A stretch of DNA of 64,000 nucleotides from Verrucomicrobiaceae bacterium E54 (GTDB lineage: Bacteria; Verrucomicrobiota; Verrucomicrobiia; Verrucomicrobiales; Akkermansiaceae), in NCBI GenBank assembly GCA_022548915.1, contig JAKZES010000004.1, positions 1 through 64,000 of the forward strand, given 5' to 3'. Within the stretch, counting starts at the first letter, position 1. The number at the start of each line of letters is the position of its first letter. The notes below the pieces were generated by a model that was not told where the DNA came from, made no database searches, and worked only from the letters and a program-made list of their open reading frames with translations. Both the position numbers and the translations under genes were made by a program. This document shows, in pieces, positions 8,525 through 52,269 of the stretch.

Positions 8525-8679
8525 AAATCAAATTGCATTCAGAGCTGCAATCAGCCTCGAGAACCTACCTGCACCATTGTCAGAGCTGTCTAGTCGGTTT
8601 TGAGTAAAACCCCTAGAGAACGGGACATGTGAAGCCCGATCCTCACCCACTCGGGCAGAGGACCGGGCCCGAATTTGCT

Positions 8680-9507
8680 CTACGCCGAAGTCCTGCTAGA
8701 TGGCGGCCACGCGGCACAGTCCTTGCGAAACTGGCACCACGAGCAGTGCATGCCGGGCTGTGGGAAGAACCGTTCTTCAACGATCCCCTCCACGGCGGTC
8801 TCGAGCATCCGAACGACCCGGTCCTTCCGTTGCCGGTCGGCGGGTGGGGAGCTGACCTTGATGACCTGCGGCGTCTTGGTCTTCACCAGGAACACGAGGT
8901 CGAGCGACGGCGGGGTTTCTCCCGTCGCGCCCTCGACCAGCAGCTGGTAGCTGACCAACTGGATCTCGTGGTCGAAGGCCGCCTGCTTCGGGTCGGGGCG
9001 CGCCGCGGCGGACTTGAAGTCCACCGGGACGCCGTCGTGGGTGACGAGGTCGATGACCCCGCCCAACGGCACCGGGAGCCCGTCGAGCTTCTGGTCGAGG
9101 GGCACTTCCACCGCCTTGGGGCGCTCGGTGGGTGCCTCCCCGGAGTCGAGGTAGGCGGCCAGCACCCGCAGCCCGTCTTCCCGGGCCTTGGTGCGGGCCT
9201 TGTCGTCCTTCCAGGACACCGGGCCTTCCTCTTTCTCCAGACGCCGGAACTCGACCTCGAAGACGCTGGCGAGCATCTCGGGCGAATCGTTTCCACCCCG
9301 CCAGCGGGCGAGGTGGAAGGCCTGTAGCCCGGCGTGGATCGCCTTCCCCAGATGCAGGGACGGCGACACCGGGGCCGGCAGACGCAGCACGCGCTCGAAG
9401 AAGAACTTCAACGAGCACGACAGGTACGACTTCGCCGCGCTGGGCGAGATGTGGTCCGGGAGGGTCCGGGGGGCTGGCGCCACCGCCTGCTGGGTCGGGG
9501 CGATCAT
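8680..9507 (-). CDS. PD-(D/E)XK (RecB/Cas4-like) nuclease
   Basis: 275 residues from the ATG at 9507, which overlaps the upstream stop (ATGA). The RecB-family order is visible: ISPSAAKSYLSCSLKFFFERV at the N-terminus, GGVIDLV and VDFKSAA (D...DxK), QLVSYQLL (Q-x-x-x-Y), and a C-terminal cysteine group HCSWCQFRKDC. Together with the N-terminal Cys this resembles the 4Fe-4S site of AddB/Cas4 nucleases. Coupling to the following small protein and location in the element core suggest a DNA-processing role in the element rather than CRISPR adaptation; no cas genes are present. Confidence 0.8.
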   Translation of the reverse strand: MIAPTQQAVAPAPRTLPDHISPSAAKSYLSCSLKFFFERVLRLPAPVSPSLHLGKAIHAGLQAFHLARWRGGNDSPEMLASVFEVEFRRLEKEEGPVSWKDDKARTKAREDGLRVLAAYLDSGEAPTERPKAVEVPLDQKLDGLPVPLGGVIDLVTHDGVPVDFKSAAARPDPKQAAFDHEIQLVSYQLLVEGATGETPPSLDLVFLVKTKTPQVIKVSSPPADRQRKDRVVRMLETAVEGIVEERFFPQPGMHCSWCQFRKDCAAWPPSSRTSA

Positions 9508-10001
9508 GAGTGACCTCCCTTCCCGTTGGCGTAGGCCCGGCCGCTGGAACGGCGCTGGGGCTTTCCGCCGTGCGTGTCGAGCAACTCGTCGATCAGGCCG
9601 GAGGCCTCCATCTTGTTGAGTTGCTTCACGCCCTTGCCGAAGCGTTGGCGGGCGAGGTGGTCGACCTCGTCCTTGTCGAGGCTGTGCTCGTCGACGAGCT
9701 TCAGGATGAGTTCCTTCTGCTTGTCGCTGCACTGCCAGCGGTCGCCATTGGGCGAGTGCCCGTTGGAGCCGTCGGTGTGCGGTTGGGCGTCGTCCATCCC
9801 GTAGTCGCCGGGCGGGACGAAGCCGGTGGATTGGATCTGCTCGTCGACATTGGTCTGGAGCAGGTCGTAGAGCCGCCGGGACTCGGCGGCGACGTCGTCG
9901 GTAGCCACCAGTTCGGTCTCAACGGAGACGGAGAACTGATGACTGGAGTAGCCCGGGAGTCCCAGGCGTTTCGAGTAGGTTGCATTCAGGCGGATAGCCA
10001 T
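9504..10001 (-). CDS. Hypothetical protein coupled to the RecB-like nuclease
   Basis: 165 residues from the ATG at 10001; the longer ORF start would run through a terminator. The N-terminal half (MAIRLNATYSKRLGLPGYSS... SVSVETEL) is beta-rich. The C-terminal half is helical and basic (KQKELILKLVDEHSLDKDEVDHLARQRF). A single-strand DNA-binding accessory role for the overlapping nuclease gene is possible but not shown. The ATG lacks a Shine-Dalgarno and follows an A/C-rich leader. Confidence 0.62.
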   Translation of the reverse strand: MAIRLNATYSKRLGLPGYSSHQFSVSVETELVATDDVAAESRRLYDLLQTNVDEQIQSTGFVPPGDYGMDDAQPHTDGSNGHSPNGDRWQCSDKQKELILKLVDEHSLDKDEVDHLARQRFGKGVKQLNKMEASGLIDELLDTHGGKPQRRSSGRAYANGKGGHS

Positions 10002-10023
10002 GGCTGGTTGTGTGTTTGTGGTT

Positions 10024-10063
10024 GTGCCCGGGCACGAAAAAGCCCGGCCGTGATGGGCCGGGC
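10024..10063 (-). terminator. Intrinsic terminator plus GTGCCCGGGCAC palindrome
   Basis: Read on the minus strand, GCCCGGCC-catcac-GGCCGGGC is followed by TTTTT, a strong factor-independent terminator for the sigma-like gene that ends at 10093. Directly after it is the 12-bp perfect palindrome GTGCCCGGGCAC (10024-10035), which lies in the leader of the next gene. The 15-mer GCACGAAAAAGCCCG is shared with the terminator at 10938-10992. Confidence 0.75.
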
Positions 10064-10092
10064 GTCGTCGTGGCGGGCGGTTTGTGGGGTCT

Positions 10093-10803
10093 TTATTTGA
10101 GGCAGGTCGTCGTCGGCTTCGTAGTCGAGGTCGTGTGGCAGGCATGCCGCTCGCGTGCGGACCGCAGATCGGATTCCCAAGAGGGTTTCACGCCATCGAG
10201 CAGTCGCCGAATCACGTCCTCGCCGAAGAACTCGATCAGGTCGGTGGCGATCCTCCGCTTCAGGATCAGTGCGGCACTGTCCTTGATGCCGCAGCGTTTC
10301 CCGGCCTCCCGCATGGTGCCGCCTTCCGCCAGCGCAAGGATGGCGATCCGGTGGCGGGGCGGATGAGCGGCCATGAAGGCCTCCCAGTCGAGGTTGCGGG
10401 CGGCTTCCTCGGAGGGGTCGGGTTCCTGCCCCTGGTAGGGGTGGCAGGAGACGACCTCGTGCAGGGTGCCGATGTCTCCGAACTCCGTCTCGACGGACTC
10501 GTCCAGCCATTCGTGGCGGGCCTTGCCGTCGAGCTGGCAGCCGGGCGACATGGCGTCGCTGCGACCGGTGTAGTAGCTGCGGCGTCCGCTGCGGGCGGCC
10601 TTGGTCGCATACCACACCATGTTGCCGGCGGTGAAGCGCCGGCCGGCTTTCTCGGCGGAGTCCATCATCCGGGCGGCCATCAGGGTGGCGTCCTGGGTGA
10701 TTTCCTCGTCGTCCTCGTGTCCGACCTTGGGGATCGTCCTGGCCGCGTGACTGAGGCGGGGCGCGACTTGATGTTCGAGCATGTCATTGAGCACTGGGCT
10801 CAT
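10093..10803 (-). CDS. Sigma-70-like HTH regulatory protein
   Basis: A 236-residue protein. The N-terminal part is helical with a region-2-like layout. The C-terminal helix-turn-helix (RIAILALAEGGTMREAGKRCGIKDSAAL) resembles region 4 of ECF sigma factors. The basic, Thr-rich tail is unusual. I call it sigma-like rather than a proven sigma factor. It is flanked by intrinsic terminators on both sides, so it is a single-gene unit. Its own leader shares the hairpin and A/C-rich pattern seen before three other element genes, making it a candidate regulator of that set. Confidence 0.5.
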   Translation of the reverse strand: MSPVLNDMLEHQVAPRLSHAARTIPKVGHEDDEEITQDATLMAARMMDSAEKAGRRFTAGNMVWYATKAARSGRRSYYTGRSDAMSPGCQLDGKARHEWLDESVETEFGDIGTLHEVVSCHPYQGQEPDPSEEAARNLDWEAFMAAHPPRHRIAILALAEGGTMREAGKRCGIKDSAALILKRRIATDLIEFFGEDVIRRLLDGVKPSWESDLRSARERHACHTTSTTKPTTTCLK

Positions 10804-38236: not shown

Positions 38237-38854
38237 ATGCCAGCGAATCCCGACATGTTGCCAACCCGGCATTCTCTCATCGAGAGGGCCCGCTCGCACC
38301 ATGACACCAGGACATGGGAGGATCTGCTCGATTACTACGAATCCTTCATCAGCAAGATCCTCCTGCGGATGGGTTTCCGGGGCATGGATCTGGAGGATGT
38401 CCGGCAGCAGGTGTCGCTCAAACTCTGGCAGGGGCTCAAGTCCTACCGGCGGGACGCAGGCGGGGCCCGTTTTCGGAACTGGCTCTCGACCTTGATCCGC
38501 AATTCCGCGATCAATTGGATCAGCGCGCAGCGCCAGGTCGGGCGCGAATCCATGCTGGAGTCGGGCGACCTGGAGCGCATCGCCGCCAAAGGACCGGAAA
38601 TCGAGCAGCTCATCGAGCAGGAATGGCAGCGGCATGTCGTCACCCTCGCGGTCGAGAACCTCAAGAAGGTGTTTTCCGGCAAGGCGATGGAGGTGTTCGC
38701 GCTCTCGCTCGAGGGCGAGTCGGTGGACTCGATCGCCGCCACCCTCGACCTGCGCAAGGAAAGCGTCTACGTCCTGAGGACGAGGGTGAAGTCCAGGGTC
38801 CGACAGGAGATCGCACGGCTTCAGCAGGAATTGGAGGGGGGGCGCCATGAATGA
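38237..38854 (+). CDS. ECF-type RNA polymerase sigma factor
   Basis: 205 residues (alternative ATG at 38252). Region 2: WEDLLDYYESFISKILLRMGFRGMDLEDVRQQVSLKLW and FRNWLSTLIRNSAINWI. Region 4: AMEVFALSLEGESVDSIAATLDLRKESVYVLRTRVKSRVR with the HTH. It overlaps the kinase start by 8 bp, a pairing common in Verrucomicrobia and Planctomycetes in which a membrane kinase may control the sigma factor. The downstream exoprotein genes are plausible targets. Confidence 0.88.
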   Translation: MPANPDMLPTRHSLIERARSHHDTRTWEDLLDYYESFISKILLRMGFRGMDLEDVRQQVSLKLWQGLKSYRRDAGGARFRNWLSTLIRNSAINWISAQRQVGRESMLESGDLERIAAKGPEIEQLIEQEWQRHVVTLAVENLKKVFSGKAMEVFALSLEGESVDSIAATLDLRKESVYVLRTRVKSRVRQEIARLQQELEGGRHE

Positions 38855-40868
38855 GTCCGACCCGTTCTACGAGAGGTCCTTGCAAAGAATCGACGCTTTC
38901 GCCGCTGACCTCTACGCCGATGCGGAGGCGCAGACCAGCACCTGCGAGACCCGCGATGACCCGGCGCCGCTGTTCCATGCCCTGAAGGGCATCCCGGCCC
39001 GTTACGAAGGGGCGGAACGGATCGGCCGTGGCGGGGCCAAGGAGATCTTCCGGGTCCGCGACCTGCGCTCGACCCGCGAGGTCGCGATGGCGAAGCCTTT
39101 GCCGTCCCTCGGTGAGGATGACTTTGACGCCTTCCTGCGCGAGGCGCACATCACCGCACGACTCGACCACCCCGGGATCGTGAAGCTCTTCGACATGGGA
39201 GTCGATGAGGACGGGCGACCGTTCTTCACCATGGAACTCAAGAAGGGCCGCTCGCTGCGGGAAATGCTGCGGGAGGCAAAGGAGGGCCGGGAGTTTCCCT
39301 TGAGGCAGCGGCTCTCGATCCTGCTCCGTGTCTGCGAGGCGGTCGCCTACGCCCACTCGCGCCGGGTTCTCCACCTCGATCTCAAGCCGGAGAATATCCA
39401 GATCGGCGAGTTCGGGGAGGTGCAGGTTTGCGACTGGGGCATGGGCGTGGTGCTTCGGCCTCCCGAGGGCGAATTGGAACAGACCGAAGTTCTCCTCGAC
39501 CCCGACCTCTACGGGCCGCTTCTGCGGCACTCTCGCGGCACGCCCGGCTACATGGCACCGGAGCTGTCGGAGGCCGGCAGGCCGAAGTCGGTTGAGATGG
39601 ATGTCTTCTCGCTTGGCTGCATGCTGCAGGAGCTGCTCACCCTGCAGGCGCCGGATGGCCCGGAGCTTGCACCGGAGAGCGGCGACGAGGTGCTGGGGGC
39701 CATCGTGGCCAAGGCCACGAGGAAGAATCCGGTCAAGCGGTATTCCTCCGTGGCCGGGCTCCAGCGGGACCTGTCGCGCTACCTCGCCGGCTACAGCACC
39801 TCGGTCGAGCATGCGGGGTTTGTTCGGGAAGTGCAGTTGTTTTACCGCCGCCACCGCACGCCCTGCCTGCTGGTGGCGGGGTTCGTGCTGCTGTTCGTGG
39901 CGGGGACCACCGTGTTCATCGAAAGGCTCGAACGAAGCCGCGAGGAGGCCGTGGTGGCGCGGCAGCTTGCCGAGCAGGCCCAGGACCTCTACCGCGCCCA
40001 GAAAGTCGAGGCGGAAACCGCCCTGCAGAACTATCTCGCCGCCACCGAGGAATCCGACCGCCGACTCGAAGAGCAGGGGCGCCTGGCTGCCGAGTCGGTG
40101 AGCCGCCTGACAGGGAAGCCATTTTTTGAGAATGAAGCCATCCTGCCAAAAATGGTCCGCGAAGGGCATCGGCGCCTGGACCGGGTGATCGCGCTCGACC
40201 CACCCCCTGAGTCACCGGTTTGGCAATATAAGTTCTGGCTGCTGTTTCTCACCCAGGATCTCAAGGGCGCGCTCCAAGTCCGGAGCGGAAACCTCGACAA
40301 CGTCGAGGACCTGGTCGCCCTGGCGCACGAGCATGCTCCGGCTCAGACCGAATCCGGGTGCCTTCCAGCCCCAGCCTTCGCCGAACTGCTGAGGACCCTC
40401 GCCGGCTTGAAGGATCCGAGCCGCAACCCCCTGATGGAACGGATGCTGATCTATGACCAGCAGTTCCCCAGGCCGGATGAGGAGCGGGTGGCGATCCTCC
40501 GCGAGGTGCTCGCCGTGGTGAATTCGGATGCCTCCGAGGTGGAACTCACCTTCGACTCCCGGGACCGGTCCCTCGTGGTGCGCGGCGCCAAGGTCCGTGT
40601 GCTTTCCCTGCGGGCAAGGCACGGCTGTTCCGACCTCAGTCTGCTGCGCTTCCTCAAGCCCGTCAGGCTCGTGTTGGAGGGGACCGGCGTGACCGACCTC
40701 GAGGAACTCAACGGCCTGCAACCGGTGTTCCTCGATCTCCGTGACACCGACGTCCGAGACCTCCAGCCGCTGACCCGGATGCCCTCCCTGCAGGAGGTCA
40801 AACTGACACCGGGGCGCTTCACCGAAGAGGAACTCTCGATCCTCGAGGAGCGGGAGGAACGGGAGTAG
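38847..40868 (+). CDS. Membrane Ser/Thr protein kinase with LRR-like C-terminus
   Basis: 673 residues. The kinase domain at about 55-310 has RIGRGGAKEIFRV (Gly loop), a VAMAKP Lys, HLDLKPENIQIGEFGEVQVCDWG (catalytic loop near 175, with DWG replacing DFG) and GTPGYMAPEL. A single TM helix CLLVAGFVLLFVAGTTVFI lies near 340-360. A coiled-coil segment follows, then an extracytoplasmic domain ending in LRR-like strands (LVLEGTGVTDLEELNGLQPVFLDLRDTDVRDLQPL). It is cotranslated with the ECF sigma factor. Its 3' end is duplicated at 46024. Confidence 0.9.
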   Translation: MNESDPFYERSLQRIDAFAADLYADAEAQTSTCETRDDPAPLFHALKGIPARYEGAERIGRGGAKEIFRVRDLRSTREVAMAKPLPSLGEDDFDAFLREAHITARLDHPGIVKLFDMGVDEDGRPFFTMELKKGRSLREMLREAKEGREFPLRQRLSILLRVCEAVAYAHSRRVLHLDLKPENIQIGEFGEVQVCDWGMGVVLRPPEGELEQTEVLLDPDLYGPLLRHSRGTPGYMAPELSEAGRPKSVEMDVFSLGCMLQELLTLQAPDGPELAPESGDEVLGAIVAKATRKNPVKRYSSVAGLQRDLSRYLAGYSTSVEHAGFVREVQLFYRRHRTPCLLVAGFVLLFVAGTTVFIERLERSREEAVVARQLAEQAQDLYRAQKVEAETALQNYLAATEESDRRLEEQGRLAAESVSRLTGKPFFENEAILPKMVREGHRRLDRVIALDPPPESPVWQYKFWLLFLTQDLKGALQVRSGNLDNVEDLVALAHEHAPAQTESGCLPAPAFAELLRTLAGLKDPSRNPLMERMLIYDQQFPRPDEERVAILREVLAVVNSDASEVELTFDSRDRSLVVRGAKVRVLSLRARHGCSDLSLLRFLKPVRLVLEGTGVTDLEELNGLQPVFLDLRDTDVRDLQPLTRMPSLQEVKLTPGRFTEEELSILEEREERE

Positions 40869-41001
40869 TCGGCCGCCACGAAGCGCCCTCCTGCGTGCCC
40901 CCGCGCGGCGAAACCGCAGAAACTTTGGGAAAATTTCGCCCCGAGTGTTTCGATTTTCCCGTCGGGACGGTTCTTCCCTGCGAATGCCCGAAATCCGGGC
41001 G
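40790..41001 (+). repeat. Direct repeat copy A (kinase 3' end plus downstream leader)
   Basis: It covers the last 26 codons of the kinase gene and about 130 bp downstream, ending in GCCCG-AAATC-CGGGC. Copy B at 46024-46225 is very similar. The non-coding part includes GAAACCGCAGAAA and TGTTTCGATTTTCCCGTC. It forms the leader of the PEP-CTERM gene at 41147. Confidence 0.85.
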
Positions 41002-41146
41002 TTCTGTCAGTTTCGTGTGTCCACCAAGGAAATGCGAGCATAGCTGGCATTCAGTCACCATTCAGATTGCGCACAAGAAAGCACTTTTGCACTCTCTTCG
41101 CTGGAACTACCTGAACCACCTGCAAATCACGACCTCATTCCCAATC

Positions 41147-41887
41147 ATGGAATCCAAGAAATCCATCGTCTCCGTTGCTCTCTTTCTCGCTTCGATTCTC
41201 ACCACTTCCGCGACCACGGTTGTCCTGAATCAAGCCACCATCAATGCCTCCGCCGAAGTTTCCGGAGCCAGCATTACCGGAGCCACTGATCTGGATCTGG
41301 GCACGTCGACGCTCACCTATGCTGATTTCACCATCAGTTCGACCAACAATGGCAGCGCATCGAATATTTTTGTAAGTGACATTGGATCCGGCACCGAGAT
41401 GGTTCAGATCGGTAACAATGGTCATAGCGGCTGGAAAGCTTCAGAGCTTTCCAACAATGAACTCGTGACCGTCACATTCAATCAACAGGTCAATCTCACC
41501 CAGGTTACCTTGCACGCCTGGGGGAATAATGACGACCCTGCCTTCATCGGGCTTGCGGGTGATCCGGGAGTGATTTCGGTTTCAAGCTTCACCAATACGG
41601 GAGCCGTTGATGGCGATGGTCTGGAGGCCCAGCCGAACGGTTACGTTTACGACGGCGTGGGTGATCTGCTCACACTGCGGATCGATGGATTTGCCCATCA
41701 GGTCACCGTCAACTTTGAGAATCCCGTCAGCTTGAACTCATTCACCGTTACCTCCGGAAGTAGCGATGCGGGCGCAGGCGGCATCGGCTTTGGCGGTTTC
41801 ACCTATACCGCGATACCGGAGCCTTCCACGGCCCTCTTGGGAGCGATGGGTCTGCTGGCGCTGCTGCGGCGCCGTCGTGGATTCTGA
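41147..41887 (+). CDS. PEP-CTERM sorting-domain exoprotein
   Basis: 246 residues from the ATG at 41147; the track's upstream start reads through the leader repeat. A signal peptide (MESKKSIVSVALFLASILTTSA) is followed by a beta-rich Ser/Thr/Asn domain. The C-terminal anchor is IPEPSTALLGAMGLLALLRRRRGF, the PEP motif, hydrophobic helix and Arg cluster processed by exosortase. It is exported to the cell surface or exopolysaccharide. Function of the body is unknown. A 119-bp gap follows. Confidence 0.88.
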   Translation: MESKKSIVSVALFLASILTTSATTVVLNQATINASAEVSGASITGATDLDLGTSTLTYADFTISSTNNGSASNIFVSDIGSGTEMVQIGNNGHSGWKASELSNNELVTVTFNQQVNLTQVTLHAWGNNDDPAFIGLAGDPGVISVSSFTNTGAVDGDGLEAQPNGYVYDGVGDLLTLRIDGFAHQVTVNFENPVSLNSFTVTSGSSDAGAGGIGFGGFTYTAIPEPSTALLGAMGLLALLRRRRGF

Positions 41888-42006
41888 TCCGGACCGCTGG
41901 TGGCCTGGCGAGGCCTCCAACCTGCTGCTTCAGATTCCGTCCGAACGAAGGTCGGGACGCTCTCTGAGTGCCTATCCTCGCATGGCCCCTCAAGAACCCG
42001 GCTCTG

Positions 42007-45000
42007 ATGAACGGTGCGAAAACCCTCTCGTTGCTGGCGAGCTTAACGCTCCCGCTTGCGGCTGAGACCTTGCTCCCCGCCGAATTGGGGCCGACTGGCA
42101 GTCTCCCGCAAGTGGTTCGAAACGCCACCCTGCGAGTCCTGGCGCAGAGTGGGAGCCAGCTATTCAGAGGCGATTTGAACGGGACTCCCATTCTCGGGAT
42201 TGAAGGAGGCTTTGATAATGCAACCGTGTCCGGAACGGAAACCCTCAGCCTCTTCTTCGACCGCAGGAACCGGATTGATGCCCTGGAACTCGGCGGCTTC
42301 GACCCCTCCGATTCGCCGGTGCTCATTTCGGGTTTTACCAGCGATCCTGGGGCTCCGCTGAGCAATGGCACGACGAGTTTTGCCAATGGCGTCCTTTCCC
42401 TCACCGCGACCAGCTTCGTCGAGGTCGCGGCCGTCGCGTTTGCAAACCCGCAGAACGTCGACCTCTTTACCATCTCTGCGCCGGAGGCGGATGCCGAAGG
42501 CAAGGGCATAAGCCTGGTCAGCCTTTCCCATACCCCGCAGCCACAAACGCTCTATCGGGAGGAGTTCCCAAACGGTCGCCGCAGTGCCCGTCCGCTTGCC
42601 GCCTGCGGCTGGGATGCAAGCTCGGCGACGGGCACTGGGTCGGGCGGCAGCATTTCCCCCACACAGACCGTGGTCGCTGCAGGCGACCTCGGCAGCGGTG
42701 ACCTCGGCAGCGCCACGGCGAGTTCAGGAGGACTCAGCTTCAGCAGTGCCTCGGGCAACCTCTTCATTGGCGAGGAGGCCACCTACACCTCGATCGGGAT
42801 CGTTGGCTCGTTTAAGTCCACCACCCTTAGCCAGGGAGAGAACTGCGACATCACCCCTGTCGACAGCATGGTGGTGGATGAGATCACTTTCTCGGGATTT
42901 GGCGGCAACGATTCGCCCATTCTGCTCTCCGGCTTCCCCTCGGATCCGGGGGCCACACTCAGCAACGGAACCGCTGTTTTCGCCGGCGAGACCCTGACCC
43001 TGACCGCCACCAGCTTCGCGCAACTCGCCACTCTCAGCTTCGCCACTCCCCCGGTCCTCAGCACACTCAACATCCGCTGCAACGGAACAGATTCCGGTGC
43101 CGGCGGCGTCGGAATTCACACACTTACCTACCGTGCCGCCATCGGCGGCTTGCCCTCCACCGCGCAGATTGCCGGCATCTTCGGTGACGACCACGCGGAG
43201 ATCTTCGCCAGCCAGTCCAATGGGGACACCAAGGCGATCATTTCCACCGAGGAGGATTGGATCGACCACGACCCGGCGCGATATACCGGACTTGAACTCC
43301 GCTGGGAGCAGGCCGGTGGAGCCAACGGCGCCAACGTCGAGGTCCGCCCCATGATCGAGGTGAGGGGGCAGTGGTTCGCATCGGCAACCTCCTTCGGAAC
43401 CTCCGCGGACAATTCTCCCTTTGAGAACAAGAGCCTGACCCTCTCGACCGCCGCCGCTGACTGGCGCTCTGTCACGCTTTCCGACAACTCGGCGGTTCTT
43501 GGTCCACCGCCTGCCGGTGATCTCAGCGGCCCGATTACCAATCTCGGATTCTTCGCCGACTTCAGCGCGGATGAGGAGGATGAGACCCTGCTTCTCGATC
43601 GCGTTGAACTGGTCGGCCATCCACTCTTCCCCGACGAAGAGGCGTGGACCTTTGTGTCGATGCCCGACTTCACCAATGCTGACATCGCCGACATGTCCGG
43701 TGCGCTCACGGGGGTGCCCGCCGCCTCCGGTTGGGATGGCGGTCAAAATGGCAGCACGGCCGAGATCGAGGACAGTTTTCTCGGCCTCTTCCAGTCGATG
43801 ACTTCCGAGTCACCGGACCTCTTCCTTGTGGCCGGCGACCTCGTCGAGGGCGAGTGGTTCAAGGACGCCGCCGGGCGGCAGATCATCGGCCCGGTCAACA
43901 GCGATGCAAACCGGGAGCTCGCCTTCATCGAGGGCTCCTACTACTTCTACGGCCACTATCAGAACGCCTGGTTCGGCGCCAACGACCTCCGGGTCATCGC
44001 CTGCGTGGGCGACCATGAACTCGGTGACAACGACTGGGGAATCAACGGTGCCAACACCAAGCTGATCCCGACCATGCGCAGCGAGTTCTCGCGCTGGTTC
44101 ACCCGCTTTCCGGCCGGCCAGTGGTCCACTTACACGCCGGGCGGACGGCCCGACCGCACCAGCCCCGACTTTGCCGACACGCCGGCTCCGCTCATCTACC
44201 CGGACCGGCCGGTGGGCTCGCCGCACGAGCAGACCGCCTTCGCCCTGCGCCACAAGGACACCCTGATCATTTCGCTGGACGTCTGGCAGCACGTCGGGCC
44301 GGGCACCTTCCTCTACCCCTATGGCGGCACGGTCAAAGCGGAGCTGGAAGCCACTCAACTCGCCTGGGTCCAGAACCTTCTCGCCGAGGCGGAAGCGGAT
44401 CCGACCATCCGCCACATCATCACCCAGTGCCACACCCCGATCCTGCAGCCGGTGCTGACCACCGCTTCCTCAGGCATGACCTACATCGATGGCGAGTCCA
44501 GCCCGCTGTTCCAAGCCATGGCGGACTACGGGGTCGATCTGCACTTCTCCGGTGAAGTCCACGACATCGCGGCTTCTCTCGCACACGAGGGCGTCCAACA
44601 AATCGTCCACGGCTCTCCGCCCGGATCACGCGTCCTCAACTACCTTCTCGTCCGGGTCTTCCCCGATCAACTGGACTGCACGATCAAAACCGGTCGCCAG
44701 TATCGCGACACCTCCGTCCCCTACTGGCAACCGGAGGACGGCAACGGCAAAGCAGGCTTCGCTGAAATCCGGGAACCCTTCAAGGCCTCCGGCCGAATCA
44801 CGATCGACAAGTCCGGCCCCGAAAAAGTCGTCTCGGACAGCACCGGGTTTCTCGCCAATATCGAGCACGACGATTATCTCCTCCACTATTCTTTCGATCA
44901 TCCAGCCGGGACCCGACAGATGCCGAACGAGGGCACGCTTCCCGACCTCAATGCCGACGGCCAGAAGAAGTGGCTCGGCGACCTCGACTCCGCATGGCTC

Positions 45001-46008
45001 GCCTCACCCGATTTCGGCCCCGGCAAATTCGGCAACGCCCTCAGCTTCGCAGGGGTCGCGGGCAACCCCGACCAGATCAATGCGGGGGAATGCCCCACTC
45101 CGCTCGCCAAGCCGCGCACCCTCGCCTTCTGGCTCAGAACGTCCCGGCCCGGCTTCATGAACATCGCCGGATACGGAGACGACGAGAGACCTTTCGGGGA
45201 GTTCAACGCACAGATCAGCGCGGACGGTCGCCTGCAACTCGACATCGGCGCCTACACCGCCGCCGCGCTTGGGGGACCGGTGATCAATGACGGATTGTGG
45301 CACCACTGCGCCATCGTCGTCCCCGCCTGGGACCAATCGACCCTTGGCGAAGTCCTGTTCTACGTGGACGGTGTCCAGTATGCAGCCGACACCACAGATC
45401 CGGGTGAGACCATCCTGACAAAGACGACCTCGTCGAGAGGGCAGATGTTCATCGGGCGTCATCCCCTCAACACCAACGCACCCTTCGTCGGGGAACTCGA
45501 TGATCTGGTCCTCTGGGGCCGCGGCCTGGGCGCCGCCGAATTGTCCCTCCTGCATGCCTTCGGCTCATCCACATTGGCCTACGATGTCGCCAGGGCCGAC
45601 CCACTACTCAAGGCGTTCCGGCGCGGCGAGGGGGTCGAGATCGACGGCACCACCTGGTTCTACGTCGGGGAGGACCTGCGCGGTTCTCCCGGAACTCCCT
45701 ACGACCTTGACAGCGACTACCTGACTCCCCTCGCGCCCGGCAGCGGCATGTCCACCATCGGAAGTGCCATCGACCGCTCGCTGAAGGGGCGGCTCACCAA
45801 TGTGGATCGACAAGCCGCCACGGTCACGCTGCAGTGGAACTCCCTTCCCGGAGCCACCTACGACATCGAGGGTTCAGACGACTTCATCGGATGGGACCCC
45901 GAGCCGACCGGCCTCAATATTCCCTCCGAGGGAACGACCACCACCCACGAGTTGACACCCACCAGCCTTCCGGCCCGGAGATTCTACCGCATCACCGAGA
46001 CCCCATGA
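42007..46008 (+). CDS. Secreted metallophosphoesterase with duplicated N-terminal domain and LamG domain
   Basis: 1333 residues from the ATG at 42007 with a signal peptide (SLLASLTLPLAA). Two related beta-sandwich segments share (S/N)DSP(V/I)L(I/L)SGF(T/P)SDPGA and LSLTATSF. The calcineurin-like phosphoesterase core follows: VAGDLVEGEWF (near 610), CVGDHELGDNDW, QCHTPI and HFSGEVHD. A LamG/concanavalin-like domain (about 960-1190) and a C-terminal beta domain complete it. Metal-dependent hydrolysis of phosphoesters outside the cell is the likely role. No PEP-CTERM anchor. Confidence 0.85.
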   Translation: MNGAKTLSLLASLTLPLAAETLLPAELGPTGSLPQVVRNATLRVLAQSGSQLFRGDLNGTPILGIEGGFDNATVSGTETLSLFFDRRNRIDALELGGFDPSDSPVLISGFTSDPGAPLSNGTTSFANGVLSLTATSFVEVAAVAFANPQNVDLFTISAPEADAEGKGISLVSLSHTPQPQTLYREEFPNGRRSARPLAACGWDASSATGTGSGGSISPTQTVVAAGDLGSGDLGSATASSGGLSFSSASGNLFIGEEATYTSIGIVGSFKSTTLSQGENCDITPVDSMVVDEITFSGFGGNDSPILLSGFPSDPGATLSNGTAVFAGETLTLTATSFAQLATLSFATPPVLSTLNIRCNGTDSGAGGVGIHTLTYRAAIGGLPSTAQIAGIFGDDHAEIFASQSNGDTKAIISTEEDWIDHDPARYTGLELRWEQAGGANGANVEVRPMIEVRGQWFASATSFGTSADNSPFENKSLTLSTAAADWRSVTLSDNSAVLGPPPAGDLSGPITNLGFFADFSADEEDETLLLDRVELVGHPLFPDEEAWTFVSMPDFTNADIADMSGALTGVPAASGWDGGQNGSTAEIEDSFLGLFQSMTSESPDLFLVAGDLVEGEWFKDAAGRQIIGPVNSDANRELAFIEGSYYFYGHYQNAWFGANDLRVIACVGDHELGDNDWGINGANTKLIPTMRSEFSRWFTRFPAGQWSTYTPGGRPDRTSPDFADTPAPLIYPDRPVGSPHEQTAFALRHKDTLIISLDVWQHVGPGTFLYPYGGTVKAELEATQLAWVQNLLAEAEADPTIRHIITQCHTPILQPVLTTASSGMTYIDGESSPLFQAMADYGVDLHFSGEVHDIAASLAHEGVQQIVHGSPPGSRVLNYLLVRVFPDQLDCTIKTGRQYRDTSVPYWQPEDGNGKAGFAEIREPFKASGRITIDKSGPEKVVSDSTGFLANIEHDDYLLHYSFDHPAGTRQMPNEGTLPDLNADGQKKWLGDLDSAWLASPDFGPGKFGNALSFAGVAGNPDQINAGECPTPLAKPRTLAFWLRTSRPGFMNIAGYGDDERPFGEFNAQISADGRLQLDIGAYTAAALGGPVINDGLWHHCAIVVPAWDQSTLGEVLFYVDGVQYAADTTDPGETILTKTTSSRGQMFIGRHPLNTNAPFVGELDDLVLWGRGLGAAELSLLHAFGSSTLAYDVARADPLLKAFRRGEGVEIDGTTWFYVGEDLRGSPGTPYDLDSDYLTPLAPGSGMSTIGSAIDRSLKGRLTNVDRQAATVTLQWNSLPGATYDIEGSDDFIGWDPEPTGLNIPSEGTTTTHELTPTSLPARRFYRITETP

Positions 46009-46023
46009 CGGATTCACCTCCCA

Positions 46024-46093
46024 GCAGGAGGTCAAACTGACACCGGGGCGCTTCACCGAGGAGCAACTCTCGATCCTCGAGGAACGGCAATAG
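46024..46093 (+). pseudogene. Remnant of a second kinase gene 3' end
   Basis: The in-frame tail QEVKLTPGRFTEEQLSILEERQ and stop matches the last residues of the membrane kinase (QEVKLTPGRFTEEELSILEERE...), with a deletion of three codons. It starts 16 bp after the metallophosphoesterase stop. The rest of the kinase gene is absent. This is a decayed fragment of a duplicated kinase-leader unit. Confidence 0.8.
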
Positions 46094-46225
46094 TCGGCCG
46101 CCACGAAGCGCCCTCCTGCGTGCGCCCGCGCGGTGAAACCGCAGAAATTTGGAAAAATTTCGCCTCAACTGTTTCGATTTTCCCGTCGGGACGGTTCTTT
46201 CCTACAGATGCCCGAAATCCGGGCA
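46024..46225 (+). repeat. Direct repeat copy B
   Basis: About 200 bp closely matching 40790-41001, including the non-coding leader with GCCGCCACGAAGCGCCCTCC and the terminal GCCCGAAATCCGGGC. It precedes the exoprotein gene at 46313, mirroring the placement of copy A before the gene at 41147. Confidence 0.85.
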
Positions 46226-46312
46226 TTTCGGCGAGGTCGTGCGTCCGCCCCGGACCCTCGATCCCCCGTCAGCATTCAACCACCGCTCATCGCAAGGATC
46301 ACAAAAGGAGGC

Positions 46313-48952
46313 ATGAATCATCACTTCAAACTCCCACTTCTCGCGGCCCTTCCCTCTCGCATGATGACAGCAATCTCGAAAGGTTTCCTTCCTCCCGCCA
46401 TCATCTCGCTGGTGCTCACTGCCGCCAGCCATGGCGACACGACATTTCTGACCAACAATACCTCGCCCAAGACCCTGGCCCCGGACGAGGGCGATGGTGC
46501 GCCTCTCGCAGGGATCGGCGCCAGTGACGTCACGGCCCTGACCCTGAGCGCTGACGATGGAGGGAGTGCGCTTAATCTCACCACCGTCAGTGTCGTCGAC
46601 CAGAATGGAGCCACCACCCTCGGCATGGATGGAGATTCCCTTGGCGTCAACAATGACAAGTGGGGCGTCGACCAGGTCTGGACCTTCTCCTTTGACCAGG
46701 CTCGCAGCCTCAAGGACATCTCACTCTCTGATGCGAACACCGTTCAGGACAGACTGACCATTTCATCAACGGCGTGGGGGAGTGACACCGTGGTCGATGG
46801 CGGCAATTGGACGTTCACGACCGATGGCACGGTTGGCACGATCACCACGGCGGTGATTCCGGGGTCGCCGACTATTTTCGACTTCGACGCCTCCGGCCTG
46901 TCGAGCGTACCCGCCAACACGACGATCACCATTGCCCACCTTTCCGGCGGAGGGGGTGTCCAGCTGCATAGCTTCACCGTCGGCACGGTCGTACTCGATC
47001 CCGACCCGCCGACCCCCGACCCGATGACCTGGGAAAGCGAACCGGCAGCCATCGGCGAAACCAGCATCACGATGACGGCCACCACCGCCATCGACCCGAG
47101 CGGCGTCCAGTACTACTTCACCGAAACCTCCGGCGCCGGCAATGACAGCGGGTGGCAGACCAGCCCGACCTACATCGATACCGGACTCAGCCCCAACACC
47201 ACCTACACCTACACGGTGAAAGCGCGCGATGCCCTCGGTCTTCACGAAACCGGGGCCTCGGGGGCCGTGGCCGCCACCACTGATCCTGCCGCCCCGCCGA
47301 CCCCGAATCCGATGACTTGGGCGAGTGTGCCGACGGCGACCTCCGAAAGCATCATCACCATGACGGCCACCACCGCCAGCGACCCGAGCGGGGTGCAATA
47401 CCAGTTCGTCCGCAGGCTTGGGTTGGGAGGCAGTGTGGAATTCACCAGTGCCTGGCAGGACAGCCCGGAATACACCGATACCGGCCTGAATCCAGGCACT
47501 GAATACAGCTACACCGTGGCGGCAAGAGACTCCCTGGGCAACACGACCGATCCGTCCGGCGAGGAGGCCGCCACCACCGATCCTGCGGATGTGACGCCTC
47601 CATCACCCAGTACGATGACATTCTCCACCGCCCCGATCGCCATCACCCCCACGAGCATCACCATGACGGCGACCACCGCCACCGACCCCTATGGCGTGGA
47701 GTACTTCTTCGACGAGACTTCCGGCAATCCCGGCGGCAGCGACAGCGGCTGGCAGGACAGCCCGACCTACCTCGACACCGGCCTGGATCCAAACACTGAA
47801 TACACCTACACCGTCATCGCGCGGGACAAGAGCCTCGCCCAGAACCCCACGACGGCATCATCACCCGCCTCGGCGACCACCCACCCTTCAACGGGCATCG
47901 GGACGCTCCTCATCGGCGGCTTTGGCGGGACCTCCGCAACCGCGATTCAGAGCGCAACGATCAGCAACGTCGACGTGACGCTCACCAGCTCCGAAGTGCC
48001 CGGTGTGCCGACAGACGGCAACGCGCAGATGGATGGCATTCTCTGGGGCAACTCCGCGCTCGATGTCGAGGCACCTTCCATTTCGAACACCCAGGATCCC
48101 GGCCGTGCAGCCGTCATCCAGGAAGGAACCGGGACCAGCTGGACCCTGGTGCTGACGGTGACCAACAACGGGGCCGACGAACTTTCCCTGGAGGGCCTTC
48201 ACTTCAAAACGAAGAAGGATATAAATAATCAGGGGCCGAATTACTGCACCATCGCCTATGCTTCGGGCAACTTGGGTGCGCCAGCCAGCATCATTATGGC
48301 CATCCCCAATGGTGCTGGCAATGGGTTCGATATCCCGCTCGCGGGTTTCCTCGCGGATACGACGCTCGCGGGTGGTGAGACCGCCACCTTCACCTGGACC
48401 CCGGGGCCTCCGGAAGACCCCGCCGGCAATACGGGCTTCCGCCTGGACAACTTCGCCCTCTCCGGTTCCGTGGCCGGAGGATCCCCTGCCTTCAATACAT
48501 GGGCGGCGCGGGATGGAGCCAGCGGCGTCACCTTCGAAGGCGACGCCAATGGCGACGGAGTGATCGATGGCCTTGCCTTCCTGCTTGGCGCGGACAATCC
48601 CAACGTCAATGCGACCGGCCTGCTGCCGAGCAGCGATGAAAATGGCGGAGATCTCGTCATGAGCTTCGACTGCCTGGCCGCCGCAGCCCGCGGGACGGCC
48701 GTACTCACCCTGGGGTGGGACGGTGACCTGGCCGGATCCTGGCTCGGTGTCCCGGTGCCCGGCGCAGTGGGTGCTCCCAATCCGATTGTCGAGGCCAACG
48801 GCACCGGAAGCGTCAGCTTCGTGGCGACGGACGGTGGCACGAATACCAGTGGCGACCCCCTGATCGCCATCGAGGCCACCATCAGCGACGCCACCCAGTC
48901 TGCCGGAGGCAAGCTCTTCGGACGCCTCGAGGGTGCCGAGTCCACCCCCTGA
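46313..48952 (+). CDS. Secreted FN3-repeat protein with shared N-terminal module
   Basis: 879 residues from the ATG at 46313; the ORF track start lies inside the leader repeat. The signal peptide ends near ASHG. The N-terminal module (DTTFLTNN...LTLSADDGGSALNLTTVSV...LHSFTVG) recurs in three neighbours. Three fibronectin-III-like repeats follow, each with PMTW or MTFS, SITMTATTA, SGVQY and YTYTV. A beta domain (LLIGGFGG...FRLDNFALSG) and a C-terminal GDANGDGVIDGLAFLLGA segment, typical of Verrucomicrobia exoproteins, follow. No catalytic domain is seen; adhesive or structural role inferred. Confidence 0.78.
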   Translation: MNHHFKLPLLAALPSRMMTAISKGFLPPAIISLVLTAASHGDTTFLTNNTSPKTLAPDEGDGAPLAGIGASDVTALTLSADDGGSALNLTTVSVVDQNGATTLGMDGDSLGVNNDKWGVDQVWTFSFDQARSLKDISLSDANTVQDRLTISSTAWGSDTVVDGGNWTFTTDGTVGTITTAVIPGSPTIFDFDASGLSSVPANTTITIAHLSGGGGVQLHSFTVGTVVLDPDPPTPDPMTWESEPAAIGETSITMTATTAIDPSGVQYYFTETSGAGNDSGWQTSPTYIDTGLSPNTTYTYTVKARDALGLHETGASGAVAATTDPAAPPTPNPMTWASVPTATSESIITMTATTASDPSGVQYQFVRRLGLGGSVEFTSAWQDSPEYTDTGLNPGTEYSYTVAARDSLGNTTDPSGEEAATTDPADVTPPSPSTMTFSTAPIAITPTSITMTATTATDPYGVEYFFDETSGNPGGSDSGWQDSPTYLDTGLDPNTEYTYTVIARDKSLAQNPTTASSPASATTHPSTGIGTLLIGGFGGTSATAIQSATISNVDVTLTSSEVPGVPTDGNAQMDGILWGNSALDVEAPSISNTQDPGRAAVIQEGTGTSWTLVLTVTNNGADELSLEGLHFKTKKDINNQGPNYCTIAYASGNLGAPASIIMAIPNGAGNGFDIPLAGFLADTTLAGGETATFTWTPGPPEDPAGNTGFRLDNFALSGSVAGGSPAFNTWAARDGASGVTFEGDANGDGVIDGLAFLLGADNPNVNATGLLPSSDENGGDLVMSFDCLAAAARGTAVLTLGWDGDLAGSWLGVPVPGAVGAPNPIVEANGTGSVSFVATDGGTNTSGDPLIAIEATISDATQSAGGKLFGRLEGAESTP

Positions 48953-49077
48953 AGCAGAGTTCACGCGCTTCTCATCACATAACCCATCTGTCCCATCCTT
49001 CATCCGCCGTTGCCCCGAACGAATTCTGCCACTGATCAGTTCCACCTTCGAAAATCAACATCCAACACTTCCCTATC

Positions 49078-49761
49078 ATGACTACCACCTCCCAATTTCT
49101 CCTGCGCTCCGCCATTGCCTCGCTCGCGCTTGCCGCCTCCAGCCACGCTGCCACGGTCTTCGTCACCAACGACAACGGCAACGCCGCTGACCTTGATGGA
49201 GCCGTCGCGACCACCGTGACACCGCTGACCCTGAGCGCTGGTGACGGCGGCGGCACGCTCAACGTCACCACCTTGTCAGTCCTTCAAGATGCCAAGGAGA
49301 ACAGTCTCGGAATGGACGGTAACTCTCTAGGAGTCGCTGGAGACAGGTTTGGAATAAATAATGGAAACTTTCAGACTTGGATTTTTTCCTTCGATCAAAC
49401 CCTCAGCTTTGATGGCGTGCAATTCATCGACGAGGTCACAAATACTAATCGAGATTCCATGTCCATTTCATCCAGTGCATGGGAAGGCCTTACCGGCGTG
49501 ACGGACGGCAGCAATTGGACCTTCGACAGCGTTACCGGCACGATTACGACCGGCGATGTGCCTTACTCGTCGACAGTCTATGATTTCACGGGTGCCGGCC
49601 TCGCAAACATCACTTCCGGCACCTCGATTACCATTGCTTTTGCGGGCGGCAACGGCGGCACCGGCCTCGAGAGCTTCACGGTCAGCGTGATCCCCGAACC
49701 CGGTTCGCTGGCGCTGATCAGTCTGGCAGGTCTGTCGCTCCTCGCCCGCCGTCGGCGTTAA
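49078..49761 (+). CDS. PEP-CTERM exoprotein, single shared module
   Basis: 227 residues. A signal peptide (SAIASLALAASSHA) is followed by the shared beta module (LTLSAGDGGGTLNVTTLSVLQ...LGMDGNSLGV) and the C-terminal anchor VIPEPGSLALISLAGLSLLARRRR. It is the minimal member of the local family: the module plus an exosortase anchor, with no other domain. A strong terminator follows. Confidence 0.88.
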   Translation: MTTTSQFLLRSAIASLALAASSHAATVFVTNDNGNAADLDGAVATTVTPLTLSAGDGGGTLNVTTLSVLQDAKENSLGMDGNSLGVAGDRFGINNGNFQTWIFSFDQTLSFDGVQFIDEVTNTNRDSMSISSSAWEGLTGVTDGSNWTFDSVTGTITTGDVPYSSTVYDFTGAGLANITSGTSITIAFAGGNGGTGLESFTVSVIPEPGSLALISLAGLSLLARRRR

Positions 49762-49787
49762 GGTCAGCGCAAATCTGCATTTCAAGG

Positions 49788-49821
49788 AAGCCGCTGCATG
49801 GTTTATGCGGCGGCTTTTTTT
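49788..49821 (+). terminator. Intrinsic terminator
   Basis: AAGCCGCTGCAT-GGTTT-ATGCGGCGGCTT (one mismatch in 12 pairs) is followed by TTTTT. It ends the PEP-CTERM gene. The ATG at 49805 used by the ORF track lies within its right arm, so the next gene must start later. Confidence 0.88.
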
Positions 49822-49858
49822 GACCCCGCTTCCATCGAATAAAACCCTCAATCATCGA

Positions 49859-52063
49859 ATGAGAAACTCACTCCACTTCATCATTGCCTCGCTTGCAATG
49901 ACCGCTGCCAGCCACGGCGACACGACCTTTTTGACCAACAACACCGCCTCCAAGATTCTTGCCCCCAATGAGGCGGATGCGGCGGCATTGGAAGGGGTTG
50001 GTGCCACAGATGTCACCGCCCTCACCCTGAGTAGCGATGATGGCGGCGGCACCCTCAATTTGACCACGAATTTAGTAACGGTGAATGCGGGCACTCCAAC
50101 CCTGGGCATGGATGGAAACTCAATGGGTGCCAACAACGACAAATGGGGGACCAACCAGATTTGGACCTTCACCTTCGATCAAACCCTCAGCTTCGATGGG
50201 TTTCAACTCTTTGACAGTAATCAAATTAAAGATAAAATGTCGATTTCATCGACTGCATGGGGTGGTGATACGGTGACCGACGGCAGCAACTGGGTATTCA
50301 CGCAGGCAGGTGGCGTCGGCACGATCACGACAGGCATTGTTCCGGCGGCCTCCACTGTCTATGATTTTACCGGTTCCGGCCTGTCCAATGTCGCTGCGGG
50401 CACTGAAATCACGATCGCATGGGTGGAAGGAAACGGTGCGGTCGAAATGGAGAGCTTCACGGTTGGCTCGGTCGGGGGAGGGGGCACGCCCAACCCCGCC
50501 ATCCAGTCCTTCACATCCAATGTCGCCAGCGCAACACCCGGTTCTTCGGTGACGCTCAACTGGAGCGCCTCCAACTACGACACGCTCGTCATCGAACCCG
50601 GCAGTATCGATGCCGCTGCGCTGAGCACGAACGGAAGCGGCAGCACGAGCGTCACGGTCAACGCGACGACCACCTACACCCTGACGGCCAGCAAGGACGG
50701 CAACGAGGCCACCCGCAATCTCGAAGTCACGGTGACGGAGTCGGTGGATAACAGCTCTCCCTCTCAAGTTTCGCTCTGGACGCAGTGGTACCGGCCAGTC
50801 GACCAGCCGGTCTTCTCCACCACGGACGGCAACAACCACGATGCGGTCATCTTCCACGAACCGACCGGATCCACCTACAAATACTACCTGATCGTCAGCC
50901 ATGAGCCCTCCAACGCCTTCCTCTGGGGCACCAACACCTTCTCATGGAACAGCGCCGACTGGACCCTGATCGAGGGCAACTACCAGATCAACGGACAGTA
51001 TGAATACGACGACGGCGTCAAAGTGGGCGACACCTACTACCTCTTCGAGGCCGGCAAGGTCCTCACCTACACCGGCGACCTGGTCAACTCGAGCGGCAAC
51101 TGGACCCAGGCCGGCACCTTCCCCTCGGGCACCTGCGACGACATCGGCGTCTTCCATGAAGACGGCGTCTTCCACATCTTCGGGGAGTATGGCAACTTTC
51201 CCTATGGACCGGATGGCACCAGCCTGTCCCACTACACTTCCACCACCGGCCTCGGAAACTGGACCCTGGTCGATGCCAAGGCTGTCGATCCCAATCCCGA
51301 TGGGGGCAATGCCAATGGCGTGGGCGACGCCACCATCATCAAGGTCGACGGCATCTACTATCTCTTCTGCGATTTGGAAACGCAGACCAATCCCTATCGG
51401 GTGATCGCCTGGTCATCGACTGACATCAATCAACCATTCACCTACCTCGGCATCGCCTTCGAACCCCGCGAGGGCGAAACCGACGACTGGGACAACTATC
51501 GGGTCCAGGACGCCGACATTCTTTACGTCCCCGAACTGAAGCGCTTCATCATGGTCTGCAACATGCGGGACCTTGACGGAAACCCGGGGCCCAACGCGAC
51601 ACGCGTCATCGGCACCTTCTACTCGAAGGTGACCGACGGCGGTTTCGATGCCTACCTCGAGGGCTTCCCGACTCTGGCTGGCCCCGATGCCCTCGTCGAT
51701 GCCGATCCCGACGGCGACGGAGCCACGAACGGCGAGGAATACGCCGGGGGCACCCTGCCCGATGATTCATCCAGTGTTCCGCTTCATCATTTTACCAGCG
51801 TCGAGGACAGCGCACTCGACTACCCGGCTCTGGTCTTCGACCGCATCAAGGTCGATCCCCAGGCAACCCGGACCGGCGAGACCAGCAACGCCGGCAGCCT
51901 CGATACCGGCGCGTTCTCCCCGGCTGCGGGTGTGGAAGTCCTCACCGGCCCGAGCGAGATCGGGGCCTTCTTCGAGAAGGTGACCTATCGTTCCACGACC
52001 CCCTGTGGAGCGGCGGACTCCCAGTTCCTTCGTGTGCGCACCACCATCGCTCCCACACCGTAG
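49859..52063 (+). CDS. Secreted five-bladed beta-propeller protein (GH43/GH117-like)
   Basis: 734 residues from the ATG at 49859 (MRNSLHFIIASLAMTAASHG signal). The shared N-terminal module is followed by an Ig-like domain (SFTSNVASATPGSSVTLNWSAS). The propeller segment has NHDAVIFHEPTGSTYKYYLIVSHEP, DDGVKVGDTYYLFEAG, CDDIGVFHEDGVFHIFGEY and GDATIIKVDGIYYLFCDL. Repeated D/F-x-Y-Y-L blades are typical of GH43, GH32 and GH117. The C-terminus DADPDGDGATNGEEYAGG is a calcium-binding-like segment. Substrate unknown; adjacent sulfatase and esterase genes suggest a modified polysaccharide. Confidence 0.72.
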   Translation: MRNSLHFIIASLAMTAASHGDTTFLTNNTASKILAPNEADAAALEGVGATDVTALTLSSDDGGGTLNLTTNLVTVNAGTPTLGMDGNSMGANNDKWGTNQIWTFTFDQTLSFDGFQLFDSNQIKDKMSISSTAWGGDTVTDGSNWVFTQAGGVGTITTGIVPAASTVYDFTGSGLSNVAAGTEITIAWVEGNGAVEMESFTVGSVGGGGTPNPAIQSFTSNVASATPGSSVTLNWSASNYDTLVIEPGSIDAAALSTNGSGSTSVTVNATTTYTLTASKDGNEATRNLEVTVTESVDNSSPSQVSLWTQWYRPVDQPVFSTTDGNNHDAVIFHEPTGSTYKYYLIVSHEPSNAFLWGTNTFSWNSADWTLIEGNYQINGQYEYDDGVKVGDTYYLFEAGKVLTYTGDLVNSSGNWTQAGTFPSGTCDDIGVFHEDGVFHIFGEYGNFPYGPDGTSLSHYTSTTGLGNWTLVDAKAVDPNPDGGNANGVGDATIIKVDGIYYLFCDLETQTNPYRVIAWSSTDINQPFTYLGIAFEPREGETDDWDNYRVQDADILYVPELKRFIMVCNMRDLDGNPGPNATRVIGTFYSKVTDGGFDAYLEGFPTLAGPDALVDADPDGDGATNGEEYAGGTLPDDSSSVPLHHFTSVEDSALDYPALVFDRIKVDPQATRTGETSNAGSLDTGAFSPAAGVEVLTGPSEIGAFFEKVTYRSTTPCGAADSQFLRVRTTIAPTP

Positions 52064-52269
52064 ACATGTTGCGATCCCTGAAACCAACGCGCCTCAAGGA
52101 GTCGAAACACCTCGAAGCTACCTTTCAAGTCAGCTTTTCGCAGCATCCGCAGACTGCGGGTGTTTCAGCGGCGAGCAGTGAGTTGGTCCCCACCGGCAGC
52201 AGTGGCGGTGGTCCGACCGTCCGGGCGACATTCAGCGGGCTTTCCTGTTTCCTGACTTCATTTCCATCC

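Follow-up and report, generated by a model that had tools for sequence, protein, structure and literature searches.

The 64,000-nucleotide stretch of DNA analysed here (hereafter the window; contig JAKZES010000004.1, positions 1 to 64,000, assembly GCA_022548915.1, Verrucomicrobiaceae bacterium E54) carries an extracytoplasmic function (ECF) sigma factor gene, a transmembrane serine/threonine (Ser/Thr) kinase gene and a row of genes for secreted proteins. It also carries a direct repeat in which the 3′ end of the kinase gene and the leader behind it occur twice, each time ahead of an exoprotein gene. It is very probable that a promoter of the sigma-kinase module lies in this repeat, a conclusion drawn from sequence comparison. 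The genes at the locus are the following.

38237-38854, forward strand: ECF sigma factor gene, 205 amino acids (Sigma70_r2, 6e-11; TIGR02937 above cut-off)
38847-40868, forward strand: transmembrane Ser/Thr kinase gene, 673 amino acids (Pkinase, 3.7e-34; hydrophobic segment at residue 340)
41147-41887, forward strand: exo1, PEP-CTERM protein, 246 amino acids (PF07589)
42007-46008, forward strand: secreted calcineurin-like phosphoesterase with a LamG domain (start codon inferred from the signal peptide)
46313-48952, forward strand: exo2, secreted protein with fn3-like repeats, 879 amino acids
49078-49761, forward strand: exo3, PEP-CTERM paralogue of the exo2 N-terminus
49805-52063, forward strand: exo4, paralogue of the exo2 N-terminus

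The product of the first gene is an ECF sigma factor, a short protein of the sigma-70 family with regions 2 and 4, matching TIGR02937 over residues 27-191 with 65.8 bits (cut-off 42.9). Its gene overlaps that of the kinase by 8 bp, and its co-encoding with a Ser/Thr kinase marks it as a kinase-linked ECF sigma factor. In 18 of 26 loci, a simple motif search placed a sigma gene immediately ahead of the kinase gene. In the kinase itself, the catalytic domain is N-terminal, a transmembrane segment follows near residue 340, and the C-terminal part probably lies outside the cell.

The two copies of the repeat align with 88% identity over 221 bp (E = 1.9e-76), and chance is ruled out as their origin. 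Each comprises the last ~25 kinase codons, or their remnant, the stop codon and the leader, as set out below.

40783-41016, forward strand: repeat copy 1, kinase 3′ end, stop codon and leader (from the repeat alignment)
40930-40936, forward strand: A/T tract AAAATTT of promoter copy 1
40946-40953, forward strand: -35-like block TGTTTCGA, copy 1
40968-40974, forward strand: -10-like block CGGTTCT, copy 1, 14 nucleotides (nt) past the first block
46017-46240, forward strand: repeat copy 2, kinase-tail remnant (to 46093) and leader (from the repeat alignment)
46153-46160, forward strand: A/T tract AAAAATTT of promoter copy 2
46170-46177, forward strand: -35-like block TGTTTCGA, copy 2
46192-46198, forward strand: -10-like block CGGTTCT, copy 2, 14 nt past the first block

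An earlier note on this DNA had described a repeat of about 200 bp with the stop codon kept in frame and an exoprotein gene after both copies. All of this was borne out: the remnant in copy 2 retains the kinase frame and a TAG stop (46091-46093), and exo1 and exo2 follow the two copies. The leader was slightly longer than the 130 bp given there, extending over ~150-160 bp in each copy. Copy 2 begins 9 bp past the stop of the phosphoesterase gene and ends ahead of exo2, the ATG of which (46313) is preceded by GGAGG. Compared segment by segment, the copies are identical at 72 of 77 positions in the kinase tail (plus a 9-nt gap), 54 of 56 in the 5′ leader, 16 of 19 in the region of the A tract, 29 of 30 in the core and 40 of 56 in the stretch just past the core, beyond which similarity fades ahead of both start codons (41147 and 46313). 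The 9-nt difference corresponds to a second GAGGARCGG in the intact kinase gene; since both copy 2 and a paralogous kinase elsewhere in the genome lack it, the best reading is that the intact gene gained it by insertion. The earlier note had argued for function from how well the non-coding part is conserved. The remnant of the kinase is no less similar, however, and because recency alone suffices to explain the conservation between the window copies, it is other loci that make the case for function.

A search of the 5.9-Mb genome with the whole leader returned the two window copies and one partial significant match confined to the kinase tail, and no further copy of the full leader; a third site is thus missed by plain sequence search. 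The genome encodes one close paralogue of the sigma-kinase module, on C234 (sigma factor 72%, kinase 69% identical), the leader of which reads CTGTTTCGATTCCCCGGCCCGGCGCGTTCC behind an A tract, is followed by a secreted-protein gene and is too diverged for a blastn match. The core pattern TGTTTCGA-N14-CGGTTC, allowing up to three mismatches, matched the genome three times, at the two window copies and on C234, whereas the reversed pattern used as a control matched nowhere. As the pattern was derived from these same three sites, the informative part is that nothing else matched. All three sites stand before an exoprotein gene. A looser pattern gave nine matches against four in the control, and the six extra ones were treated as chance. 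More than ten PEP-CTERM-like tails were matched in the genome against three sites, so that the element is not a general PEP-CTERM promoter and a broad PEP-CTERM regulon is not supported.

Kinase homologues were next collected from 116 related genomes. The leaders following the kinase in several relatives were found to contain an A/T tract, YGTTWMGA, 14 nt and CGGTTT; for the relatives' leaders overall, the signature reads CTGTTWMGA-N14-SGTTY, preceded by an A/T tract. One relative with a site is the cultivable Roseibacillus persicicus (L088, site at 8265). A two-block weight matrix was built from 14 sites in seven groups, each group being scored with a matrix from which it had been excluded. 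Twelve of the 14 training sites reached p = 0.003-0.007 under this leave-group-out scheme (300 dinucleotide shuffles each), the other two being L090 (p = 0.013) and L079 (p = 0.053); the untrained locus L103 scored p = 0.003 against shuffles. The matrix was then run on both strands of 50 loci with related sigma genes (0.95 Mb; Verrucomicrobiota, Lentisphaerota and Planctomycetota records), yielding 13 sites of at least 16 bits where ~1.0 was expected. Eight of these were training sites or re-sightings, and the five untrained ones are each followed closely by a gene start:

L079:1632, 41 nt before a secreted-protein gene
L080:5350, 136 nt before the sigma gene itself
L087:9326, reverse strand, 60 nt before a PEP-CTERM gene
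L096:5504, before a MoxR gene
L103:8379, before a MoxR gene

The spacing between the blocks was narrowly distributed, with 13 sites at 14 nt, three each at 13 and 15, one each at 12 and 16 and none at the other spacings tested. In L083, two sites had a 15-nt spacer, one of them ahead of a secreted-protein gene. An A/T run of at least five, which lies outside the matrix, was present just upstream of 16 of 22 sites compared to a background of 7-10%. The sites beside related modules thus have the make-up of an ECF-type promoter, with two conserved blocks at a narrowly fixed spacing upstream of target genes. An ungapped motif search recovered the A/T tract and the -35 block mixed with chance matches, and the two-block matrix was used in its place. 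In the window, copy 2 scored 19.7 bits and copy 1 18.3 bits.

The sites also follow the target gene rather than the kinase. An HNH-like gene in L078 and L099, and a transposase-like insertion in L096, separate the kinase from the site, which still stands before MoxR; in L077 (genome G053) the MoxR gene and its site are on another contig than the kinase; and in L087 the kinase gene and the target PEP-CTERM gene have opposite orientations, with the site on the strand of the target. Because the site stays with the target wherever kinase and target are separated, the element belongs to the target gene and not to the 3′ untranslated region of the kinase. Sites lie anywhere from ~40 to 390 nt ahead of the start codon, a variation that a promoter would be expected to show, and the site before the sigma gene in L080 follows the pattern of an autoregulated sigma factor. 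The recurrence of the core on C234 and at related modules elsewhere, the fixed 14-nt spacer and the A/T tract all support a promoter. In L087, two divergent PEP-CTERM-like paralogues lie beside the kinase (8445-9290, reverse strand, and 9564-10316, forward strand); a clear site is found only at the reverse-strand paralogue, the forward-strand one having at most a weak site (10.4 bits).

Our preferred reading, to which we assign a probability of about 0.76, is that the repeat carries a promoter (A/T tract, TGTTTCGA, 14 nt, CGGTTC) for the adjacent kinase-controlled ECF sigma factor, and that the second site arose by local duplication. In the course of events that we infer, a signal would be sensed by the outer domain of the kinase (38847-40868), which would then make the sigma factor more or less active, with phosphorylation as the probable means by analogy with ECF43. 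RNA polymerase holoenzyme containing the sigma factor (38237-38854) would recognise the A/T tract, TGTTTCGA, N14 and CGGTTC, and transcription would start a few nucleotides past the -10 block, at roughly 40981 and 46205. The first message would carry exo1 and perhaps the secreted phosphoesterase, the second exo2 and perhaps exo3-exo4. Local duplication of the kinase 3′ end together with the promoter would in this way have given two adjacent groups of genes for secreted proteins a common switch.

Several observations weigh against this reading. The training sites were first picked by eye, such that independent evidence comes only from the leave-group-out scores and from the untrained sites. Many modules in the set, including those of Pontiella, most Lentisphaera and Rhodopirellula, have no site detectable by the matrix, and a stringent search across the class (384 genomes) returned two sites, both already known, the reversed control also returning two. 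Of this genome's three sites, the one on C234 has the lowest score, and the matrix scan found no site of this type upstream of the window's own sigma gene. Finally, the usual -35 word of ECF sigma factors is of the GGAAC type, unlike the -35-like word seen here.

With respect to history, the earlier note had proposed that a whole kinase-leader-exoprotein unit was duplicated in tandem and that the second kinase was then lost except for its end. The kinase coding piece at copy 2 is in the right order and frame for such an event and an exoprotein gene follows both copies; we nonetheless consider it unlikely. Exo1 and exo2 show no significant overall similarity (26% identity, E = 0.13), although the repeat is 88-94% identical and an event as recent as this would have left such similarity, and the nearest paralogue of exo1 lies elsewhere in the genome, at 39%. 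These searches rule out that exo1 was copied recently, whether from exo2 or from another gene, and a duplicated unit would therefore require that one exoprotein had been replaced. Furthermore, with C234 as outgroup, 13 changes in the 3′ leader were derived in copy 1 and two in copy 2, from which it appears that copy 2 keeps the older 3′ flank and copy 1 has the new one; the alignment to the outgroup is short in this region and only moderately reliable, which tempers this conclusion. In a simpler account, exo1 and the phosphoesterase gene would have come in after the kinase, parting it from its original target, and at the junction the kinase end would have been duplicated together with the promoter.

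Two other explanations bear on function, and both appear improbable to us. According to the first, the copies are a mere relic of a recent local duplication, and the leader of copy 2 is functionless and conserved because little time has elapsed. The kinase remnant, which is beyond selection as a kinase, is indeed as similar between copies (72/77) as the leader (54/56 and 29/30). Against this, the core is seen again at the C234 paralogue, despite its divergence, and other genera have it next to the same module or ahead of the same target, and copy 2 is undecayed by comparison with the outgroup and the higher-scoring of the two copies. According to the second, the promoter serves another sigma factor or a DNA-binding regulator instead of the adjacent ECF sigma factor, as might be suspected from the position of the L077 site away from the kinase gene and from the lack, in most modules, of a site upstream of the sigma gene itself. 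The near confinement of the sites to module neighbourhoods argues for the module's own sigma factor, as do the fixed 14-nt spacing between two blocks, typical of sigma recognition, and a sister sigma subfamily that has a different -35 word at the equivalent place and spacing.

In that sister sigma-kinase subfamily, CTGTCCCAA-N14-GYTCAT was found in the equivalent neighbourhood (L053:3475, L062:3399 / L117:8076, and L112:9638 on the reverse strand, where the first base of the word is slightly different). The 14-nt spacing is retained and the -35 word differs, which suggests that sigma factor and promoter changed together. Two of three matches to CTGTCCCAA-N14-GYTCAT are at modules; the third, in L141, overlaps coding frames and is probably due to chance.

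The earlier note had left open whether the leader is a promoter or an RNA leader, and while the evidence above speaks for the first, the second is weakly suggested by a hairpin that could form where both transcripts are predicted to begin:

40982-41004, forward strand: hairpin at the predicted transcript 5′ end, copy 1
46206-46228, forward strand: hairpin at the predicted transcript 5′ end, copy 2

Both copies can fold this 9-bp stem, and the four differences in the stem all keep pairing, one pair being changed on both sides. The C234 leader does not form the hairpin, and a search of 40300-46800 against Rfam gave no match at E up to 1. The hairpin is accessory at most for these reasons, although it may stabilise the message. 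That the conserved part should be an RNA leader of the exoprotein messages (a stability hairpin, riboswitch or translation control) is very improbable despite the pairing-preserving substitutions and the long hairpins of MoxR-type leaders, in that this hairpin is absent from C234, Rfam holds no match and conservation across genera consists of two short blocks around a variable spacer, upstream of the hairpin, and not of a structure. As to the MoxR-group leaders L047 and L051, a long hairpin, GATCGTGGC...GCCACGATC, was seen in the predicted 5′ untranslated region of MoxR, where it folds better than all shuffles.

Sigma-kinase modules are already known as a kind. Six groups of kinase-linked ECF sigma factors have been listed (PMC8999054). 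ECF59, ECF61, ECF62, ECF217 and ECF283 are linked to Ser/Thr kinases and have an intact DAED motif (PMC8999054). In ECF43, represented by EcfP-PknT of Vibrio parahaemolyticus and EcfK-PknS of Xanthomonas citri, the kinase activates the sigma factor by phosphorylation; the acidic DAED motif is typically missing from its members, in which threonine phosphorylation supplies the charge (PMC8999054, PMC13147305). Kinase-linked groups other than ECF43 were predicted from gene order, their mechanism still to be worked out (PMC8999054). The window module resembles ECF43 in that a Hanks-type kinase is encoded beside the ECF sigma factor, but it differs in its sigma2.2 motif, DLED, which is intact in the window and C234 sigma factors; the acidic pair is kept in 17 of 18 sigma sequences, L048 being missed by the pattern. 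The intact acidic motif rules out membership in ECF43, and the mode of activation must differ in detail from that of this group. The DAED-like motif and the co-encoded Hanks-type kinase are shared with ECF59, ECF61, ECF62, ECF217 and ECF283, a likeness that extends to sigma relatives with a kinase in Rhodopirellula (L089 and L091). Unlike in these groups, the members described here include Verrucomicrobiota, and a conserved target promoter with a 14-nt spacer is proposed for them. The window sigma factor matches the TIGR02989 profile (Sig-70_gvs1, a Rhodopirellula/Verrucomicrobium family) weakly and is not a member (38.7 bits, cut-off 124.6). ECF41 and ECF42 promoters have TGT-type -35 words, and the corresponding sigma factors have regulatory extensions at the C-terminus and are not known to be linked to kinases; the -35 word found here likewise begins with TGT, while the rest of the word and the -10 block are different. 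A description of this promoter was not found in the literature searched (on Verrucomicrobiota, PEP-CTERM, ECF factors and kinases), subscription journals being mostly outside the search.

At one to three sites per genome, mostly beside the module, the predicted promoter would provide a direct reporter for a kinase-linked ECF system. It names the genes expected to be switched and their expected start points, making kinase and sigma factor testable by a simple reporter assay, and the duplication offers a concrete example of regulon growth through promoter copying. More tentatively, and with the odds somewhat against it, a lineage of kinase-linked ECF sigma factors in Verrucomicrobiota may consist of nearly one-promoter switches, each with one to three sites beside its own gene, whose regulons grow as the promoter is copied locally (at this locus along with the kinase 3′ end) ahead of further secreted-protein genes, and whose targets are exchanged freely. 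If so, these targets would include a PEP-CTERM protein, a MoxR ATPase, an esterase and a pilin-like protein.

Some minor observations may be added. A reverse-strand match with a 15-nt spacer at 52110 (18.4 bits) falls within coding sequence, is followed by no gene and is probably due to chance. Among exo2, exo3 and exo4, the leader is present at exo2 only; these tandem genes (46313-52063) encode related N-terminal domains (46-55% identity) followed by different remainders. The exoprotein encoded behind the C234 module (L031:5539-7056, reverse strand) looked chimeric by eye, its secreted N-terminus being of PEP-CTERM style and the body attached to it glycosidase-like.

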